IMG/VR virus record: IMGVR_UViG_3300037011_000809
Span: 1-37,522 of that record
Source of the DNA: a virus
Length of the DNA: 37,522 bases
Reading direction: 5' to 3' (one strand)
Under the pieces are notes generated by a model. It saw only the letters and a list, made by a program, of their open reading frames with translations. It was not told the DNA's origin and made no database searches. Positions 12,292 to 35,822 of this stretch are shown here, piece after piece (within the stretch, counting starts at the first letter, position 1; every line of letters begins with the position of its first letter). A program made the position numbers and the translations under genes.

Positions 12292-12831
12292 ATGAAGAAC
12301 AAGATACTCACAATAGTCGCACTTCTGGCGATCGCGGCTTCGGCATATTCGGAAAAGATAAATGTTCCGACAGCCGAATCAGGCGGTACGCCGATAGCAA
12401 ATGCCAACCTTGGCGGTGTGGACATCGCCATCATCACTACATCAGGGCCTGTGCAAATATCCAGCGCCCCTGTTTTGATTGATTGGATCATGTTCCCCGG
12501 CACGGTTCCATTCACTGTCGGCACTAACATGTTCTACTTGGTGGACTCATCCATTCCTGTGACGCCTCTGGTGTTCTCAACGCCACTCACGTGCGTGGGT
12601 TGGTCGACGACCACGAGCAAGGCAGATCGGCTGTTCACAGTGAATTGCGCCACCTCGGTGTTGACACCAACAAACCCGGCGAGTTATCCGGGAGCGACGT
12701 ATCTGTTTGACCCATATCCGCCCAAGACAAAGTTTGGGTTGAGCGTGGGTCTGCAGAACGCGGACATGTCAGCGGGTTATGCTTCCTCCGGGACCGTCAT
12801 CGTCGGATTCCGGTATAGGAACTCAAGGTAA
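12292..12831 (+). CDS. Signal-peptide protein 1, unknown, head region
   Basis: I choose ATG 12292 (GGGAGG seven bases upstream) over a GTG at 12250. The first 20 residues, MKNKILTIVALLAIAASAYS, are a textbook Sec signal peptide with cleavage near AYS. The mature 160 residues are Thr/Ser/Pro-rich and beta-like, with two Cys (LTCVGW, VNCATS) that could form a disulfide in the periplasm. The gene sits between scaffold and capsid, where a decoration or stabilisation protein would be expected, but export is unexpected for a virion protein. Confidence 0.75.
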   Translation: MKNKILTIVALLAIAASAYSEKINVPTAESGGTPIANANLGGVDIAIITTSGPVQISSAPVLIDWIMFPGTVPFTVGTNMFYLVDSSIPVTPLVFSTPLTCVGWSTTTSKADRLFTVNCATSVLTPTNPASYPGATYLFDPYPPKTKFGLSVGLQNADMSAGYASSGTVIVGFRYRNSR

Positions 12832-12843
12832 GGGGGAACTACA

Positions 12844-13707
12844 ATGGCTAATGAGTTTACAAAGTTAAACGCGGACGTACTGTCTCCCGAGCTTTGGGCT
12901 CCGGAGCTGCTCATCGCCCGCGAACAGGTACTTGTAGCAAAAAAGGCCGTTAACCTAGGTCTTTTCGGGATAGGCGAAAAAGTAAAGGGAGACACCATCA
13001 ATGTGGGTGACCTTCCAAACTTGGTCGCCTATGATGTGGGATCTGACGGGTCTGTCACAAACCAGACCAAGACGATTGCACAGGTGCAGATATTGCTCAA
13101 CAAGTGGAAAGAAGCCACTGTCGACATCGTGGACCTGGTTAAGATCCAGTGCGTACCGGACATGGTGCAGAAGTGGTCTCAGAAGATCGCATACGCGCTT
13201 GGTGAGCAGGAGGACAAGGACATATTCTCATTGTCCGATAGCGCCAGCATCACGCAACGGTTCGGCAACAAGGATGAGGATCCTGACATAGATCAGGGAC
13301 TTATCGCTTCTATAAAGATGCTGGACCGCGCAAAGGTGCCGAAATCAGACAGGTGGGCGTTGCTATATGTTGACATGGCGGCTCTTATCCGGGGCAAGGA
13401 TAAGTTCATGTCGGCCATGCACGTGGCGTATAACGAGAAAGGCAGCCCCATAATCACCGGGGAATTGCCTCCTCTGTATGGATTAAACATACAGGCCACA
13501 ACCGGCGTGCCCATCGGCGGGACGAACATCGAAGGCAGACGTAATCTTATCTGCCATAAGGAGTGGGCCGCGCACGGGATGCAGAAGAACATACACATAG
13601 AGGAATTGGCGAGGACCAAAAAGTCAACGCCGGTTTCAGGAGACACAGTGTATGGTTCAAAGCTCATGCGTGCGGACCATGTGGTGGTGATGATAAGCAA
13701 GGACTAG
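12844..13707 (+). CDS. Major capsid protein candidate
   Basis: The 287-residue protein is the best coat candidate by position (after scaffold), size and pattern: LSPELWAPELLIAREQVLVAKKAVNLG followed by KGDTINVGDLPNL, a beta-rich segment and a terminal VYGSKLMRADHVVVMISKD. N-terminal residues of the form PELWAPELL...A, then GDTI-V, are typical of phage coat proteins of the HK97-fold class. Hundreds of copies would form the shell. A GGGGGAACT site precedes ATG 12844, and a very stable hairpin follows the stop. Confidence 0.8.
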   Translation: MANEFTKLNADVLSPELWAPELLIAREQVLVAKKAVNLGLFGIGEKVKGDTINVGDLPNLVAYDVGSDGSVTNQTKTIAQVQILLNKWKEATVDIVDLVKIQCVPDMVQKWSQKIAYALGEQEDKDIFSLSDSASITQRFGNKDEDPDIDQGLIASIKMLDRAKVPKSDRWALLYVDMAALIRGKDKFMSAMHVAYNEKGSPIITGELPPLYGLNIQATTGVPIGGTNIEGRRNLICHKEWAAHGMQKNIHIEELARTKKSTPVSGDTVYGSKLMRADHVVVMISKD

Positions 13708-13715
13708 ACGGATAT

Positions 13716-13759
13716 GGTCCCGGACCGCGGGAGGCGGCTGGATCCCGCGATCCGGGACC
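13716..13759 (+). promoter_or_regulatory. Very stable stem-loop after the capsid gene
   Basis: GGTCCCGGA pairs with TCCGGGACC (9 bp), then after one mismatch CGCGGGA pairs with TCCCGCG (7 bp), leaving a ten-base loop. It begins nine bases after the capsid stop. There is no U-run, so it may protect the upstream mRNA, act as a processing site or partially attenuate. Confidence 0.75.
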
Positions 13760-13777
13760 TAATATGCAGGGGGGAAT

Positions 13778-14299
13778 ATGATTAAAAGGATGTTGATGGT
13801 TCTGATGCTTGCGGTTGGAGTATGCAACGCGGATAACGAGATAATTCAAAAGGCGCAGTTGTTTTATCCTCAAACGACAATAATTTCAACCGACACCGCT
13901 GTGCCAAGTTCTGGGTATGTGATATATACAGGCACAAAAGTGTTTGTCGACAATATTGTGGCAAATTCAACCGCGTCATTTATGACGATACACATTAGCA
14001 CTGATCGTACGGGCAACGTGGCGATGAGTTCTATGAGCGCCATAAATTGGTACAACATAAATGGTTCCGCCATAGATGGCGGGAACCCGATGAACGGTTG
14101 GAACATTGAAAATTATGTCGATGGATCCACAGTCACAATGCGATGGCACCAAAATATTGCTCCGTATTTTAAGTTTGTAAGGATAACTGTTAAACCAAAT
14201 ATCACTGTAAACGGCGGATTTAAAACTGGTGCGGTGGTCCAATGGAGCTTGTATAGTATTCCAATAGACACCATGACTGCAAGTTATGGAAGTCATTAG
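13778..14299 (+). CDS. Signal-peptide protein 2, unknown
   Basis: ATG 13778 has GGGGGGAAT just upstream. Residues 1-18 (MIKRMLMVLMLAVGVCNA) form a Sec signal peptide with likely cleavage after CNA. The mature 155 residues look like an all-beta fold, with IYTGTKVFVDNIVAN, MTIHISTDRTGN and FKFVRITVKPN, resembling the jelly-roll type modules used in receptor-binding or decoration proteins. The first of a run of exported genes downstream of the capsid. No specific family is recognised. Confidence 0.7.
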   Translation: MIKRMLMVLMLAVGVCNADNEIIQKAQLFYPQTTIISTDTAVPSSGYVIYTGTKVFVDNIVANSTASFMTIHISTDRTGNVAMSSMSAINWYNINGSAIDGGNPMNGWNIENYVDGSTVTMRWHQNIAPYFKFVRITVKPNITVNGGFKTGAVVQWSLYSIPIDTMTASYGSH

Positions 14300-14308
14300 G
14301 AGGTCGTG

Positions 14309-15415
14309 ATGAAAAAGATATTTGTAGCGGCGGTGATTCTGGCTCTGGCGACGGGCGCGCAGTCGCGTGTCGCGCTGGACATTTCCACTCCGTTAGATGT
14401 GAAGATAAACGGTGGTGTAACTATAACCGGAGGTACTGGCTCGACCGTGACGGTTGTTAACCAAGTCGCTCCGACTACTTTTACATTTACTGGCCAGACG
14501 CAGGACATGATAGTGGGCGCGACGCAGACCTTGCCCGTCACGCATTTAGGCACCGCGACCATCCGGCAGATAGCGGGTACGCTGCTCAACATGTTCCTGC
14601 AAGCGGGAACGGTATCCATATCGTCCGGCAACGTGGAGGCGTTCCTCACCAACCAGAACTCCTCCACAACCGTGGGTGTCAGCGGTCTACCCGCAAACAT
14701 TCCAGTCGTGATAATCAATTCGTCCGTAGCTTTCACGGTAGACCAAGGCACTCCGTCTGCTACCGCGTGGAACTTTGTATCCACCGCGCCGCAGAACATC
14801 GGAAACTTTCCATCGACCTATACCGTCGGGGTGTCTAACTTTCCATCATCCACCACGGTGGGGGTGTCTAACTTCCCAAGCACTTATACGGTCGGCCTCG
14901 CCAATCTCCTGCCATCAAACACCACGCCGATATGCTTTGACGGCCCCAAAGTAGTGCCCGTGCGCCTTGACCCCATCATGCCGTATTGCACTTCCATGTG
15001 GACACGCTACTCATCAACCACGGTAAACGATATGCTGTCATCTACCGTTGACAGCCACAATGTCTGTGGACTTTATGCTTCTGACAAAGCATACTGGGTG
15101 ACAGACATATCCATCTGGATAAACGCAGACAGCGACGCGATTATCTGGGTTGCCACATGGACAATCAGCAACGACCAGACGATAGGAACAGGAACTCCAT
15201 ACAGGGGTCAGTTTCTTGACTGGTGTCCGACAGCTATTACAAGCGTGGTTCATGTCATGGGAACAGAGACAACATCTCCATACGCCGACAAGCACTTTGA
15301 CCCACCGCTGTATATTCCACAGGGTCAATACCTGAACATCTATCGCAACAAGGTGGCAACCACGGCACAGGACGAGGATGTTCTTTGTATAAAAGCGTTC
15401 AAGTCGTCGCAATAG
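14309..15415 (+). CDS. Signal-peptide protein 3 with VSNFPS repeats
   Basis: The start is ATG 14309, four bases after GGAGGT; a GTG three bases earlier is too close. The signal peptide is MKKIFVAAVILALATGAQS. The mature protein (about 349 residues) has a Thr/Val-rich N-terminal part, then repeats of (V)SNFPS(S/T)xTVG near residues 170-195, a pattern common in phage tail-associated proteins, and a C-terminal beta domain with several Cys. It is probably a surface or fibre-like protein; the exported state is inferred from the signal peptide. Confidence 0.7.
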   Translation: MKKIFVAAVILALATGAQSRVALDISTPLDVKINGGVTITGGTGSTVTVVNQVAPTTFTFTGQTQDMIVGATQTLPVTHLGTATIRQIAGTLLNMFLQAGTVSISSGNVEAFLTNQNSSTTVGVSGLPANIPVVIINSSVAFTVDQGTPSATAWNFVSTAPQNIGNFPSTYTVGVSNFPSSTTVGVSNFPSTYTVGLANLLPSNTTPICFDGPKVVPVRLDPIMPYCTSMWTRYSSTTVNDMLSSTVDSHNVCGLYASDKAYWVTDISIWINADSDAIIWVATWTISNDQTIGTGTPYRGQFLDWCPTAITSVVHVMGTETTSPYADKHFDPPLYIPQGQYLNIYRNKVATTAQDEDVLCIKAFKSSQ

Positions 15416-15423
15416 GGGGAAAC

Positions 15424-15735
15424 GTGAAAAAGATATTCTGCATCGTCGCACTCGTCGCACTCTGCACCGGACTGGCGTTAGCGGCCCGTTCTCGGTATGT
15501 CTCGACCAATACCACGGCCACGGTTGCGCCGGAATACGTCAGAACTCTCACCCGCATCATCGTGGGAGTTCCGGGGATTGCCTCACAGGTGGAAGTACTG
15601 ATTGCCGGGGAAACCATCGGCGTGTTTGAAACCTCGGAGAAACTCACGCTGGAATTAAATCAGGACACTAAATCCGGGTTCACCATAATCACCACAGGCG
15701 ACACTCCGGCGAAGTTGACCGTGGTCTATGAATAG
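15424..15735 (+). CDS. Signal-peptide protein 4, 103 residues
   Basis: The start is GTG 15424 (GGGGGA three bases upstream); the upstream extension overlaps the previous gene. The signal peptide is VKKIFCIVALVALCTGLALA. The mature part is about 80 residues of beta-rich sequence (RTLTRIIVGVPGIASQVEVLIAG...). It is too small for an enzyme. It lies in the run of exported genes and may be a partner of the neighbouring exported proteins. Confidence 0.65.
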   Translation: MKKIFCIVALVALCTGLALAARSRYVSTNTTATVAPEYVRTLTRIIVGVPGIASQVEVLIAGETIGVFETSEKLTLELNQDTKSGFTIITTGDTPAKLTVVYE

Positions 15736-15737
15736 CC

Positions 15738-16058
15738 ATGAACAAGATCAGAAGCTGGATTAAACTTCAGTTTAATCGACTGCTGGTCTGGGCGTTTCCA
15801 GATCAGTACAGCGCGGTTTGTTATGGTTGCGGCACAGCAATTAATGGGATACCTTCACTACGGGGTCAGTTGGGTGCGTTAGGTAAATGCTGCGTCGCCA
15901 GACCTTACACTGCTGATGGTCTTCCGTTGAATAGTACGATCGGGGTCAACAATAAGTATGACAAGACCATCACCATTATCGAGGACCGAGAGATCAGGAC
16001 TCGGAAGATCAACCCAGACAACACCGTCAGCTCGCGCTACGATCGGGATTGCGCGTGA
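15738..16058 (+). CDS. Hypothetical protein with Cys motif, 106 residues
   Basis: ATG 15738 follows the previous stop by two bases and lacks a strong ribosome site, so coupling is likely. The sequence starts with an amphipathic helix (MNKIRSWIKLQFNRLLVWAF) and contains CYGCGTAI and KCCVARP, possibly a metal site. Its stop overlaps the start of the adaptor gene. No family is recognised. Around this gene the codon usage begins to differ from the terminase-portal genes. Confidence 0.6.
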   Translation: MNKIRSWIKLQFNRLLVWAFPDQYSAVCYGCGTAINGIPSLRGQLGALGKCCVARPYTADGLPLNSTIGVNNKYDKTITIIEDREIRTRKINPDNTVSSRYDRDCA

Positions 16059-16702
16059 ACAATCAACAGATCATTCTGCTGGCCAGGTCGTTCCTGGGCG
16101 AGCCGGATGAACTCAACAGCCACTGGACTCCGGCCGAGATGCTCATGTACCTCAATGAGGCCATCAAGCAGACGGCGCTATTCACCAAGGCCATGGTGGA
16201 GAACTTCAGCGCCGATTCGGTGCTTGATCAGGCCGAGTACCTCACCGATGACTTGATCCGGCAAGTGGAGCAGGTATACTTCCCAGACGTCGACAACGCC
16301 GACAAGTTGACTCCGTTGATATCTATCAAGCAAAAGGAACTTGACGATCAGTATCCCACTTGGCAGTCAGACGACAACGGCAAGCCGCGGTTCTACACCA
16401 TGCCCAACTGGTACACCGTCATTATCTATCCAAAACCCAACGTCGCCAACGCGGGAAAGTCCTTTAGGATTCGCGGCGTGGTGCAACCGGTCGAATTCAA
16501 TCAGGTGGACACGCAGGTCTGCGCGTGTCGCGCTGAGTTTCACAAGGCGATCGCCTACAACGTCTGCTCGCAAGCGGCGGTCAAACTAGAGGATGGCTCT
16601 GACGACGCCTTCTTGAAGAAGTACAACAACGAGTTGGGGATAGTCAAGGCCAAGACCGACACCGCAAACAAGAGAGACTTGAAGTTCACGTGGGCACACT
16701 GA
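16055..16702 (+). CDS. Probable head-tail adaptor protein
   Basis: The frame can start at TTG 16049 or GTG 16055, both overlapping the preceding stop. The 215-residue product begins VNNQQIILLARSFLGEPDELNSHWTPAEMLMYLNEAIK and then contains LISIKQKELDDQYP and a beta segment YTVIIYPKP. Helical N-terminal half, a middle beta hairpin and a location just before tail genes resemble the phage adaptor proteins that connect portal to tail (P22 gp4-like or gp6-like role). The assignment is by pattern and context. Confidence 0.65.
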   Translation: MNNQQIILLARSFLGEPDELNSHWTPAEMLMYLNEAIKQTALFTKAMVENFSADSVLDQAEYLTDDLIRQVEQVYFPDVDNADKLTPLISIKQKELDDQYPTWQSDDNGKPRFYTMPNWYTVIIYPKPNVANAGKSFRIRGVVQPVEFNQVDTQVCACRAEFHKAIAYNVCSQAAVKLEDGSDDAFLKKYNNELGIVKAKTDTANKRDLKFTWAH

Positions 16703-16703
16703 T

Positions 16704-16922
16704 ATGGCATTTAGGAAACGCGTACTGGTCTACGGCGAGGGACCCTTCGGTGAGGGGCCGTTTGGGCCGACGTTCGGCATGAGGATTTTAGGAGCAACCA
16801 ATTGGGTGAGGGACTTTCGCAAGCGCGTGCTGGTCTACGGCGACGGAGCTTTTGGCGAGGGGCCATTTGGAACGACGTTTGGGTTGATCACAAGGGGGAA
16901 GACGCCATGGTCAAGAGGATAA
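16704..16922 (+). CDS. Small tandem-duplicated Gly/Phe protein, 72 residues
   Basis: The protein consists of two copies of FRKRVLVYG(E/D)G(P/A)FGEGPFG(P/T)TFG joined by a linker. Short YGxGxFGxGPFG modules occur in phage tail-associated proteins. ATG 16704 follows the adaptor stop directly. Its 3' end overlaps the first codons of the spike gene by 16 bases. The duplication is also visible in DNA, so it is recent or under selection. Function unknown. Confidence 0.6.
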   Translation: MAFRKRVLVYGEGPFGEGPFGPTFGMRILGATNWVRDFRKRVLVYGDGAFGEGPFGTTFGLITRGKTPWSRG

Positions 16923-18739
16923 TTCTACTTTTGTTGATGACGGCGACGGCGTGGGCTGATACTTATACTCCGAATATCGGACTTCGTCTGCCCGCAACTG
17001 GCGTAGTGGATACTACTTACTCTTGGGGAGCTAAATTAAATGACAATACCAAACGCTTGGACTATTTTTTATTTACTCCCATCGTTCCAACTACACTGTC
17101 TATTACGGATACTGCGAGCGCCGGCGTCAGTAGTTTTACCACCCGGGCTGATCACCGGCATGGTTTTACAACGGCCTTTATTAGTCCACTCTTAGGTGAT
17201 TTGGTGAAGAGTATTCAACTTGGAAATTTGATTCCCAGTACGGGACCCATTACATTCATCGCAGGTTCGGGAATGACCATCACCACCGGACCGGTCGGCG
17301 GCGCCACGACCTGCGGTTCGTCGTTTACCTTCGCGTTGAACATGACCACGGCAGGGTTGGCATCGACGTTGCAGGTGGCAGACGCCACCACATCGTTGGC
17401 AGGGTTGACCACTTATTATATTGGTGCCGCTACCTCCACATTATGGGGTTTGACCACAGCATATATTTATACGACCACAAGTCCAATCTCGGCGCAAATT
17501 GCGCTGGCCACCAGCGGTGTCATGGCCTCGGTGACAAATTATGTGGCATTGGCCACGACCACGCTTTGGGGAAACACGACCAGCCAACTGTACTCGTCAA
17601 CGTCCACGCTGTGGGGGAATACCACGTCATGTCTGTACCTGGCCACGACCACACTCACCGGGCAGACGACCTCGCAGTTGTTTGTTGCTACTCAAACACT
17701 TTGGGGGCAGACGACCTCCTATGTCTATTCTGCCACCAATACCTTTAGCGGGGGCACAGGTACCAAGATGTTCACCGTGACCATCGCGTCGGTTTCGGGG
17801 TTCGGTGCTGACTTTGAAGGGACCGATGAAGCACCGTTCCAAGCCGCCGCCGACTATCTAAAAACATTGTCGCCCGTTCCTGGCGGCTCGGTGAGGGTGC
17901 GGGCGGGCGACTATTGGTTTGCCTCGGAAGTCGGGACGTCGTCCAACACGCTCTGGATTGCGGACCCAGGCGTGAGGATTCATGCCAACCAAGCATTCGA
18001 CGGCGTAGCGCAGTCAAGTCAGGCGGCCAACGTGTCCTTTGAGAATTTTGAATTTTATAGTGCCTCAGGGAGCGTGACATGTTTTGACATTTCACATTAT
18101 CTTGATTGGACATTCAGGAGTTGCAGTTTTTACAGGACAAGTTATGGGTTCCTCACGCGAGTTGGGGATGGGAACCCCAAGCCGAACGGCATGACGTTCT
18201 GGAATTGCCGGTTCTTTGATGATCCCTTACATGTCATCAACAAAGGTGGCAATCCCATCTTTTTCTTTACGACGAGCGGGTTAATATTAAAAGACTCTTT
18301 CCTGTACACAGCCGCCGATGATGCGGTACAAATTGGAGCGGGCGGACAGGTAGCCGTGGACTGTGCCATCACAGGCAACAAGTTCTACGTGTCCAAGGCC
18401 ACGACCTGCCTGACCAGCGGCGACAGGTTCATCTCCGTCTATGACTCCACAAACACACAGATAAGCGGCAACCTGTACGTGTCCACGAGTCAACTGACTA
18501 CCGGGGTATATATGGTAAAGAGCCTTGGTGCGAAACTCGACAACAACATATTCAGGTTGTACGACAGCACCGGTATCACCATCGGCGCGAACTGCGTGAA
18601 CACTACGACGCAGGGAAACGATTTTTTCAGTTTCTCCACCGCTCCCGGCTGCGCTTACTTCGACAGCGGGACGCATTCATTGTTTAGGAACAACAGGGGG
18701 ACCACTGGATACTATCTTCCGGACTCGGAACTTCCTTAA
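16907..18739 (+). CDS. Tail spike with beta-helix and signal peptide
   Basis: The start is ATG 16907 (AAGGGGGA eight bases upstream); the longer GTG start at 16802 lies in the preceding gene. The signal peptide is MVKRIILLLLMTATAWA. Next comes a phage tail-fibre N-terminal pattern (IGLRLPATGVVDTTYSWGAKLNDNTKRLDYF), then about five 15-residue repeats of the TLWGxTTSxLY type (about residues 205-275), then FGADFEGTDEAPFQAAADYL, the usual lead-in to a pectin-lyase-like right-handed beta-helix that fills the C-terminal half. It probably binds or cuts a host surface polysaccharide. A signal peptide on a spike is unusual. Confidence 0.8.
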   Translation: MVKRIILLLLMTATAWADTYTPNIGLRLPATGVVDTTYSWGAKLNDNTKRLDYFLFTPIVPTTLSITDTASAGVSSFTTRADHRHGFTTAFISPLLGDLVKSIQLGNLIPSTGPITFIAGSGMTITTGPVGGATTCGSSFTFALNMTTAGLASTLQVADATTSLAGLTTYYIGAATSTLWGLTTAYIYTTTSPISAQIALATSGVMASVTNYVALATTTLWGNTTSQLYSSTSTLWGNTTSCLYLATTTLTGQTTSQLFVATQTLWGQTTSYVYSATNTFSGGTGTKMFTVTIASVSGFGADFEGTDEAPFQAAADYLKTLSPVPGGSVRVRAGDYWFASEVGTSSNTLWIADPGVRIHANQAFDGVAQSSQAANVSFENFEFYSASGSVTCFDISHYLDWTFRSCSFYRTSYGFLTRVGDGNPKPNGMTFWNCRFFDDPLHVINKGGNPIFFFTTSGLILKDSFLYTAADDAVQIGAGGQVAVDCAITGNKFYVSKATTCLTSGDRFISVYDSTNTQISGNLYVSTSQLTTGVYMVKSLGAKLDNNIFRLYDSTGITIGANCVNTTTQGNDFFSFSTAPGCAYFDSGTHSLFRNNRGTTGYYLPDSELP

Positions 18740-19121
18740 CGCGCTGGCGTTGATATTCGCGGCCCAGGGTGCATTTGCGTGGTCTGTCGCGTACAGCGAC
18801 GGCAAATACATTTTCCCGACGCATCTTGTGAAGTTTGACGTTAACATTTCCACTCCGCTGCCCACGGATGGTACGCGATGCTCGCAGGGACTCATCGTGT
18901 GGAGCAAAGTGTCATTACTATCCGCGCAGAGCCAACTCTGTGCTGCCGGTGTCACGTTCACCGTGTCCACCGCCACGATACCATCCGGAGTCCGTGACAT
19001 AGCGGAACAGAACAGGGGGCGGGGAGCTGGCAAGGGAAAGCAGAAAACCCACTCATACACGGACATAATGAAGCGGATTTTAAGGGACGATCCCGCGGAC
19101 ATGGATACCTTGTGGCGGTAG
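18705..19121 (+). CDS. Signal-peptide protein 6, probable non-ATG start
   Basis: The frame is open from 18600 but has no ATG, GTG or TTG before TTG 18750, which would cut the signal peptide in half. CTG 18705 has AGGGGG four bases upstream and gives LDTIFRTRNFLNALALIFAAQGAFA, a full signal peptide with a basic n-region. The 138-residue product then reads WSVAYSDGKYIFPTH... and ends in a basic charged tail (EQNRGRGAGKGKQKTHSY). Its 3' end overlaps the large tail gene. The start is uncertain; a frameshift from the spike gene is the alternative. Confidence 0.5.
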   Translation: MDTIFRTRNFLNALALIFAAQGAFAWSVAYSDGKYIFPTHLVKFDVNISTPLPTDGTRCSQGLIVWSKVSLLSAQSQLCAAGVTFTVSTATIPSGVRDIAEQNRGRGAGKGKQKTHSYTDIMKRILRDDPADMDTLWR

Positions 19122-27596: not shown

Positions 27597-28223
27597 ATGA
27601 AAGTCAAGATGGCGATGCTGGCAATAGCGACGATGGGGATTCTGGCTTGCGGGCCGAGGTGGGCATATGCGGAGGACGTTGCGGTGTCCACCAATTCGAT
27701 ACAAACAATATTTAATCTCCCCGTCATTTCTACCGGATTGCAATACTCCCCGTCAGGTATCCTCGACACCAGCGACAATACCAGCGTCGTATACAGTAAG
27801 GTGTCATGGTGGAAAATCCGATGCGTCATATTCAAAAACGAGGGTTTTATCGTCGGCGGCGGTATCTCGCTGAAAACGGGGCAGCCGGTTTTTGTCACAG
27901 CCAAAGCAGCCATCTATGCCGTGCATAATCTCCTTGCCATCAACATCGGCGGCACGGCGGTGGGCGGCAACGGCGGCACGTTTACCATCGGGCCGGCGGT
28001 AAATCTACCCGAGGTCATGCGGGTGATTCACTTCGACAAGATATTTCCACCGGCGAAATTCATATCCGGTGGGATTCAGTTCGTGTACTCAGCCAACAGA
28101 ATATACAAAAAGGACGCATTGGGGAACACCACCGGGAACGGTACACACTACGATGCCAACCTGTGGGGCGGCTTCGTAGGGCTGAGAATACCGTTGGGAG
28201 GTGGCAAGTGGGCGACCCGATAA
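27597..28223 (+). CDS. Exported protein of the lysis region, possible beta-barrel
   Basis: The start is ATG 27597 (GGGGGAAT upstream). The signal peptide MKVKMAMLAIATMGILACGPRWAYA can be cut after AYA, or, less likely, be a lipoprotein signal at ILAC. The mature 180 residues are beta-rich and end NLWGGFVGLRIPLGGGKW, like the closing strand of small outer-membrane barrels. Possible roles are spanin-like outer-membrane disruption, superinfection exclusion or surface display; none is proved. TTGACA at 27543 is a perfect -35 without a good -10. Confidence 0.65.
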   Translation: MKVKMAMLAIATMGILACGPRWAYAEDVAVSTNSIQTIFNLPVISTGLQYSPSGILDTSDNTSVVYSKVSWWKIRCVIFKNEGFIVGGGISLKTGQPVFVTAKAAIYAVHNLLAINIGGTAVGGNGGTFTIGPAVNLPEVMRVIHFDKIFPPAKFISGGIQFVYSANRIYKKDALGNTTGNGTHYDANLWGGFVGLRIPLGGGKWATR

Positions 28224-35130: not shown

Positions 35131-35241
35131 GGATTCACAAAATACACATCTGACCATGTTCGCGGTATAGTCGTCATATTTTGTCAGTGCTGGGACTAAT
35201 TCAAACATAACCTTTTCAAATGGTGTCTTATCATCACTCAT
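34984..35241 (-). CDS. Small protein with RRQALLDAAK motif, 85 residues
   Basis: ATG 35241 overlaps the stop of the alanine-rich gene (ATGA). The protein MSDDKTPFEKVMFELVPAL... has CVFC, then RRQALLDAAKRIRDAK and ends KACEHNAKAIEKMVGDEL. Its last third is paralogous to the next protein (RRQALLDAAK...AQALEKM). The CVFC pair could bind metal with Cys/His elsewhere. The function is unknown. Confidence 0.65.
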   Translation of the reverse strand: MSDDKTPFEKVMFELVPALTKYDDYTANMVRCVFCESRRQALLDAAKRIRDAKLPDWETSVFKTGWDKACEHNAKAIEKMVGDEL

Positions 35242-35822
35242 CGCAACAACCCAATCCCATAGTTTATGATTTTTGTTTTCATGGCCGCATAAGTTGCATC
35301 AGCCGCCGCATAAGCCGCCGCACGAGCCGCCTCATCAGCCACCGCATAAGCCGCCACATAAGCCGCACGAGCCGCCGCATAAGCCGCCGCATAAGCCGCC
35401 GCACGAGCCGCCGCATAAGCCACCGCACGAGCCGCCTCATCAGCCGCCGCATAAGCCGCATCAGCCGCATAAACCGCCGCATGAGCCGCATGAGCCGCCG
35501 CATGAGCCGCCGACCTGTTTGCCTCGGTGTCGTGTTTCAGCACCACCCTCGCCGCCTCGATTGCCAGTCTCGGCCTCTTGTCGTCGGGATATTGCTTTTC
35601 GTACATCCCAATTACCTGCTCGGCGGCGAAGATTGCATATCTGATTTTGTCCTTACGTCCGAGTAGCCGCGCCACCAACCAGTTAGCCCAATCCAACTGT
35701 TTTTCCTTGACCAGTTTCATGGCGACCTTTTTTCCGTCCGTGAGTTTCTGCGCCGAGAACCACGCTACACCGTCCGGACACGCCGACCACGACTGCAACT
35801 TTGCTACTGATAGTTCACTCAT
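35238..35822 (-). CDS. Alanine-rich repeat protein (putative immunity-like family)
   Basis: GGGAGGT is six bases before ATG 35822. The first 100 residues (LSVAKLQSWSACPDG..., DWANWLVARLLGRKDKIRYAIFAAEQVIGMYEKQYPDDKRPRLAIEAARVVL) resemble proteins that annotation often calls putative immunity protein. The rest is a tandem AA(Y/R/H)A array encoded by a 12-base repeat, probably a long helix. The immunity name is by family habit only; in a phage it might be a structural or regulatory helix. The repeat number is likely to vary. Confidence 0.7.
   Translation of the reverse strand: MSELSVAKLQSWSACPDGVAWFSAQKLTDGKKVAMKLVKEKQLDWANWLVARLLGRKDKIRYAIFAAEQVIGMYEKQYPDDKRPRLAIEAARVVLKHDTEANRSAAHAAAHAAHAAVYAADAAYAAADEAARAVAYAAARAAAYAAAYAAARAAYVAAYAVADEAARAAAYAAADATYAAMKTKIINYGIGLLR
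35301..35511. repeat. 12-bp tandem repeat coding for alanine-rich helix
   Basis: About 17 degenerate copies of gcataagccgcc and variants (gcacgagccgcc, gcatgagccgcc) run in tandem. On the minus strand they encode Ala-Ala-Tyr-Ala and Ala-Ala-Arg-Ala blocks. The period keeps the frame. Confidence 0.85.

Follow-up and report, generated by a model that had tools for sequence, protein, structure and literature searches.

Predicted signal peptides on a tail spike and neighbouring morphogenesis proteins of an uncultured phage suggest that adhesins may be exported before the virion is completed

Tailed phages are, according to the textbook view, assembled in the cytoplasm. What, then, is the role of signal peptides in a morphogenesis region? 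This question is raised by the IMG/VR virus contig IMGVR_UViG_3300037011_000809 (37,522 bases; the whole contig is called the window below). A first-pass annotation had noticed Sec-type signals at the start of six genes between the scaffold gene and the gene of the large tail protein (12292, 13778, 14309, 15424, 16907 and 18705, named here by their first position), among them a tail spike, and of a seventh gene at 27597. The reading that we favour, with a probability of slightly above one half, is that these would be working Sec/signal-peptidase signals, that the products would be exported, and that at least the 16907 spike would be a virion adhesin which docks at lysis.

Signals were called with a rule-based predictor of our own, which recovers 13 of 14 control signals from E. 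coli (textbook examples) and is positive on 0.6% of shuffled N-termini. We translated the seven open reading frames and checked their starts: all seven begin with a Sec-type signal peptide, each with a strong Shine-Dalgarno sequence 5' of its own start codon, and the scores of the first six signals (4.2-5.8) fall within the span seen for the E. coli controls. A charged n-region, a hydrophobic core and, within 15-30 residues, a small-x-small cleavage site are present, whereas portal, scaffold, capsid, adaptor, nozzle, internal proteins and lysin of the window carry no signal. Among the morphogenesis genes of T7 or Pf-WMP3 the predictor found no positive. Outside the window, it was positive on 26 of 1552 genes (1.7%) from 155 viral contigs, with no positive at all on 136 of these contigs; given this background, six signals in ten genes would arise by chance with p ~4e-9. 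The first-pass annotation had rightly treated such signals as unexpected for virion proteins of tailed phages. The doubtful CTG start of 18705, the weakest of the six since its signal is included only with that start, would be in line with chance or a gene-calling artefact, but this is hardly credible and already contradicted by the p value, the ribosome-binding sites and the recurrence of the trait in unrelated phages. The first description of the six genes needs two corrections, although the signals are there: 18705 requires its CTG start, and 12292 lies just upstream of the capsid gene, with 13778, 14309 and 15424 downstream, which puts signal-bearing genes on both sides of the head gene and not only next to tail genes. 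A second membrane segment is absent from the mature parts (maximum 19-residue hydropathy 1.08-1.52). Their content of S, T, N and Q is 29-34% in five of the six proteins and 26% in 18705, whereas the remaining head and tail proteins of the window reach 18-23%. No cleavage site of the window has a Q after it, unlike those of the Acidobacteriota phages.

The 16907 spike gene sits among tail genes, between an SU10-type adaptor and the nozzle. As had been claimed from the first inspection, a tail-type N-terminus comes directly after its signal: the cleavage site AWA is followed by DTYTPN. The sequence after AWA, DTYTPNIGLRLPATG..WGAKLNDN, is a tail-fibre N-terminus, with a beta-helix at the C-terminal side (Pfam Beta_helix, 2.6e-6), and the motif TPN-x2-[LF]-x2-P-x2-G..WG is found at the N-terminus of the mature spike, right after AWA, as DTYTPNIGLRLPATGVVDTTYSWGAKLN. 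A search of IMG/VR with this motif gave 110 distinct viral proteins, about 10 of them with signal peptides. The ordinary members, which are tail collar and fibre proteins (Pfam, PHROGs; collar, pectate-lyase and S74 domains), start with MADTYTPN or similar; their Met stands mostly 2-6 residues before the motif, and in 61 of 99 there are exactly four residues between Met and TPN. In the signal-bearing members the cleavage site lies 2-5 residues before TPN, and DTYTPN of the window corresponds to MADTYTPN of ordinary fibres. The signal thus occupies the place of the Met, and its cleavage would regenerate a standard tail protein. We were not able to recognise an unexported spike or fibre elsewhere in the window. 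This, together with the fixed spacing between cleavage site and motif, favours virion adhesins that are exported and then docked. In a tree of the 33-column N-terminal domain we counted 2 to 9 signal changes, a range that does not resolve the number of origins.

Are the signal-bearing proteins really exported? The mature fibres with a signal contain 1.53% cysteine and ordinary fibres 0.42% (p 7e-5). Outside the window, the number of mature cysteines is even in 33 of 36 signal-bearing proteins, and in 18 of 18 of those with at least 300 aa; for the remaining proteins of these phages the figure is 119 of 261. An independent set of cultured phages found later (Tunturi, see below) has even numbers in 10 of 11 proteins, so that 43 of 47 cysteine-containing signal-bearing proteins are even, against ~45% of other proteins. 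Ordinary TPN..WG fibres show 30 even and 46 odd counts. This bias points to paired cysteines and disulfide formation, for which the periplasm, and hence export, is needed. Potentially, a high cysteine content could reflect the composition of the host; this is countered by the parity contrast within the same genomes. For the signal-bearing class as a whole, export is, on sequence grounds, very probably real. The cysteine-bearing signal proteins of the window itself have 2, 5, 9, 2 and 1 mature cysteines (9 in the spike, 5 in 14309); parity adds nothing here, and the support in the window consists of the signals, the N-terminal spacing and the composition of an exported type.

On the other hand, the hydrophobic N-termini may not be used for export, or may not be cleaved, in which case the proteins would fold in the cytoplasm or the spike would be anchored in the virion or in a membrane. 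Adhesins of tailed phages are normally assembled in the cytoplasm, and the odd cysteine number of the window spike speaks for this possibility as well. We nevertheless consider it improbable, because n-region, h-region and cleavage site are of the expected kind and the conserved domain begins right after the site, because the even-cysteine bias is limited to signal-bearing proteins and the mature parts are rich in S, T, N and Q, and because one relative (L187) has a lipoprotein-type signal instead.

The first-pass annotation described the cassette in one phage, but it is not peculiar to it: the same trait is seen in several unrelated phages, including cultured ones. Full contigs with several signal-bearing genes in the morphogenesis region are G001, G003, G004, G009/L057, G010/L051 (eight such genes within 18 kb) and G012. 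G001 is of the contractile-tail type (baseplate wedge by PHROG), while G003 and G004 are of the podovirus type. In G001, L057 and L113 a signal-bearing fibre follows a baseplate-J-like gene; in G004 a signal-bearing block stands directly before adaptor and nozzle, and in the window the signal-bearing spike stands between them. These conserved positions, and the true tail-fibre N-termini after the signals, make it very unlikely that we are looking at recently captured genes of the host secretome (morons) which lie in the operon by accident and have no organised role, even though the ASH and Fn3-associated domains of some of the proteins resemble domains of secreted bacterial proteins.

Three observations on these contigs may be added. 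The contigs L099, L162 and L183-L189 are variants of one phage species that differ in the tail-fibre region, where the signal-bearing fibre is either intact or shortened and then followed by another signal-bearing fibre gene; this suggests a switching of modules, each with its own signal. In L187 / G012:6636-7325, a lipoprotein-type signal (MKKVYGLLLLLVVTTG, with cleavage before C) stands ahead of a tail-fibre N-terminus, which suggests a lipidated version of the fibre. Finally, a 2403-aa signal-bearing protein encoded in the tail region by L083:8044-15252 (G004) has 54 cysteines and contains ASH/Hydin-like as well as Fn3-associated repeats.

When one signal-bearing N-terminus was compared with 50,697 phage records by tblastn, only Tunturi 4 and 5 were matched. 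The Tunturi phages are isolates from Tunturiibacter (Acidobacteriota; PMC11924767), and the main text of that paper contains neither a mention of signal peptides nor virion proteomics. In Tunturi 5 six consecutive genes, gp337-342, bear signals, three of them annotated as tail fibre, and in Tunturi 4 two do, gp113-114. The signal-bearing block of Tunturi 1 reaches from gp12 to gp17; among its products are the tail spike of the annotation and a "virion structural protein". Tunturi 3, which has the same host strain as Tunturi 1, shows no signal-bearing gene in the structural region; the trait therefore belongs to the phage and not to the host. G004 is related to Tunturi 1 (TerL 7e-36, portal 7e-41, nozzle and capsid also related), so its host is probably a member of the Acidobacteriota. 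None of the 18 window proteins searched with phmmer matched proteins of Tunturi 1, 4 or 5, and on this basis the window falls outside the Tunturi 1/G004 group as defined by homology of TerL, portal, nozzle and capsid.

If the proteins are exported, they do not necessarily end up on the virion. They could act apart from it as free depolymerases or binding proteins, either periplasmic or located at the surface, for example in receptor masking, superinfection exclusion or the loosening of extracellular polymers at lysis. There is a precedent in Lambda Lom, a signal-bearing outer-membrane protein from the tail-fibre region (PMC12309495), and several signal-bearing relatives have enzyme or surface domains (GDSL lipase, chitobiase/Fn3-associated, ASH, C1q, YadA-head). 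In the window, 12292, 13778 and 27597 show no tail features. The sole candidate for a Lom-like outer-membrane moron (signal plus 8-strand beta-barrel) is 27597, which has no family match; with its lipobox-like ILAC, it is possibly a lipoprotein or a small outer-membrane protein. For the small capsid-adjacent proteins and for 27597 such a role may well be right. As an account of the whole, this main alternative seems to us somewhat unlikely: a free enzyme would have no use for an N-terminus of the tail-attachment type kept at constant spacing from the cleavage site, we see no further adhesin in the window, and the signals of G001, G003, G004, Tunturi 1 and Tunturi 5 are borne by the long fibres themselves.

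In the reading of export followed by docking, the infected cell would secrete the six products through its inner membrane, and after losing their signals they would fold in the periplasm. The mature 16907 spike would then be a normal virion adhesin with the standard attachment N-terminus of tail fibres, and it would dock on virions once the action of holin and lysin breaks down the membrane and lets the compartments mix. As for the small proteins encoded next to the capsid gene, they may decorate the head or tail after production by the same route, or they may be envelope proteins. Of the three functions that had been proposed from the first inspection, the assembly of adhesins outside the inner membrane is thus favoured, and receptor masking and membrane tethering less so, given the spacing, the lack of an unexported fibre and the cysteine pairing of the relatives. 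Several points weigh against our interpretation. The cysteine numbers of the spike and of 14309 are odd, so that the disulfide argument is taken from other phages; Tunturi 3 shows that a phage of the Tunturi 1 host strain can do without export; the nozzle itself might be the receptor binder; and the signal calls come from our own predictor. A genome scan for the signal-plus-fibre motif did not find a prophage host of the window and gave one out-of-frame chance match.

More generally, the export tags on tail fibres and spikes of soil phages suggest an unrecognised route of building tails partly outside the cytoplasm. Tentatively, and with odds that we put a little below even, this could be a new route in Caudoviricetes, shared by cultured Acidobacteriota phages and the window: virions would be built in two compartments, with heads and tail cores made in the cytoplasm, and the adhesins would leave it through Sec, become oxidised and form trimers in the periplasm, and join the particles only at lysis. 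Were whole sets of fibres indeed secreted first, this would change our view of when and where a virion is completed and of the role of lysis, as well as of the use of disulfides in adhesins and the annotation of "secreted" phage genes. Sequence alone suffices to recognise the trait, and as it recurs among soil phages and occurs in isolates that form plaques, it can be tested now. A literature search, which did not cover subscription journals and some preprints, found no paper on tail-fibre signal peptides.

The features of the region are collected in Table 1.

Table 1. Signal-bearing genes of the window and neighbouring late genes. A slash marks the predicted cleavage site; RBS, ribosome-binding site.
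Product	Position	Strand	RBS and start	Signal	Score	Remarks
Signal-peptide protein 1, 179 aa	12292..12831	+	GGAGG, ATG	MKNKILTIVALLAIAASA(YS)/	5.3	2 mature Cys; no family match
Major capsid protein	12844..13707	+				PHROG phrog_267 7e-20; Pf-WMP3 capsid match 1.8e-16; no signal peptide, internal negative control
Signal-peptide protein 2, 173 aa	13778..14299	+	GGGGGG, ATG	MIKRMLMVLMLAVGVCNA/DNE	4.5	probably beta-rich
Signal-peptide protein 3, 368 aa	14309..15415	+	AGGAGG, ATG	MKKIFVAAVILALATGAQS/RVA	5.0-5.2	5 Cys
Signal-peptide protein 4, 103 aa	15424..15735	+	GGGGG, GTG	MKKIFCIVALVALCTGLALA/ARS	5.8	
Head-tail adaptor, SU10-adaptor / T7 gp11 type	16049..16702	+				Pfam PF24175 (SU10_adaptor) 9e-12; no signal
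72-aa protein	16704..16922	+				two GEGPFG repeats; overlaps spike start; direct reading
Signal-peptide tail spike, 610 aa	16907..18739	+	GGGGG, ATG	MVKRIILLLLMTATAWA/DTYTPN	5.1	
Signal-peptide protein 6, 138 aa	18705..19121	+	GGGGG, CTG	LDTIFRTRNFLNALALIFAAQGAFA/WSV	4.2	
Tail nozzle-type protein, 861 aa	19112..21697	+				T7 gp12 position; phrog_3287 3e-5; no signal
Seventh exported protein, 208 aa	27597..28223	+	GGGGGG, ATG	MKVKMAMLAIATMGILACGPRWAYA/EDV	3.3	lysis region

The late genes run from small and large terminase through portal, scaffold, capsid, adaptor, nozzle and internal proteins to lysin. PHROG matches exist for terminase and capsid, and the family phrog_3287 is common to the nozzle-type protein and a 912-aa protein of G004. 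Compared with T7 gp12, the nozzle-type protein is longer; it seems to carry an inserted lectin-like domain and is a possible second receptor binder. The 14309 protein carries repeats of the "VGVSNFPSTYTVGVSNFPSS" type and is a candidate for a fibre-like or decoration protein; it has no PDB or family match, and further PDB sequence searches gave no matches either. AlphaFold (AF2) models from single sequences had pLDDT values of 51 (13778 protein) and 34, too poor to name a fold or to be used. We were not able to find direct relatives of the window in IMG/VR via capsid, terminase and portal protein, and a primase query gave there only weak, unrelated matches without signal blocks; among isolated phages, neither portal nor spike had a tblastn match. 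An 18-bp tandem repeat array (CCCGCCTCGATGCCC...) is found at both contig ends (1-240 and 37300-37522), and the genome is thus probably circular and cut inside the array. On the minus strand, 35238-35822 encodes a 194-aa protein whose C-terminal end is a long alanine-rich AAHAAYAAADEAARA repeat.

How does the window compare with known systems? In podoviruses of the Pf-WMP3 type (Saffermanviridae), terminase, portal, scaffold, capsid, gp11 and gp12 come in the same order as in the window, and the capsids are related (1.8e-16). Unlike the window, Pf-WMP3 has no extra genes at the scaffold/capsid/gp11/gp12 junctions and no signal-bearing morphogenesis gene, so that the signal-bearing genes of the window appear as additions at these junctions. 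The ordinary TPNxxLxxPxxG..WG fibres (Pfam Collar, Peptidase_S74 and pectate-lyase; PHROG tail fibre families) share the attachment motif and the tail-gene setting with the window spike, but they begin at the Met where the spike has a predicted cleavable Sec signal. Known exported phage proteins, such as Lambda Lom (PMC12309495) and signal-bearing endolysins (PMC8951688), are encoded by the phage like the window set, and Lom also comes from a tail-fibre region; they are, however, single envelope or lysis proteins and not adhesins with virion-attachment domains as in the window. Tunturi 1, 4 and 5 have, like the window, blocks of signal-bearing fibre or spike genes in the morphogenesis region, although their fibres are longer and cysteine-paired, whereas those of the window are not clearly so.

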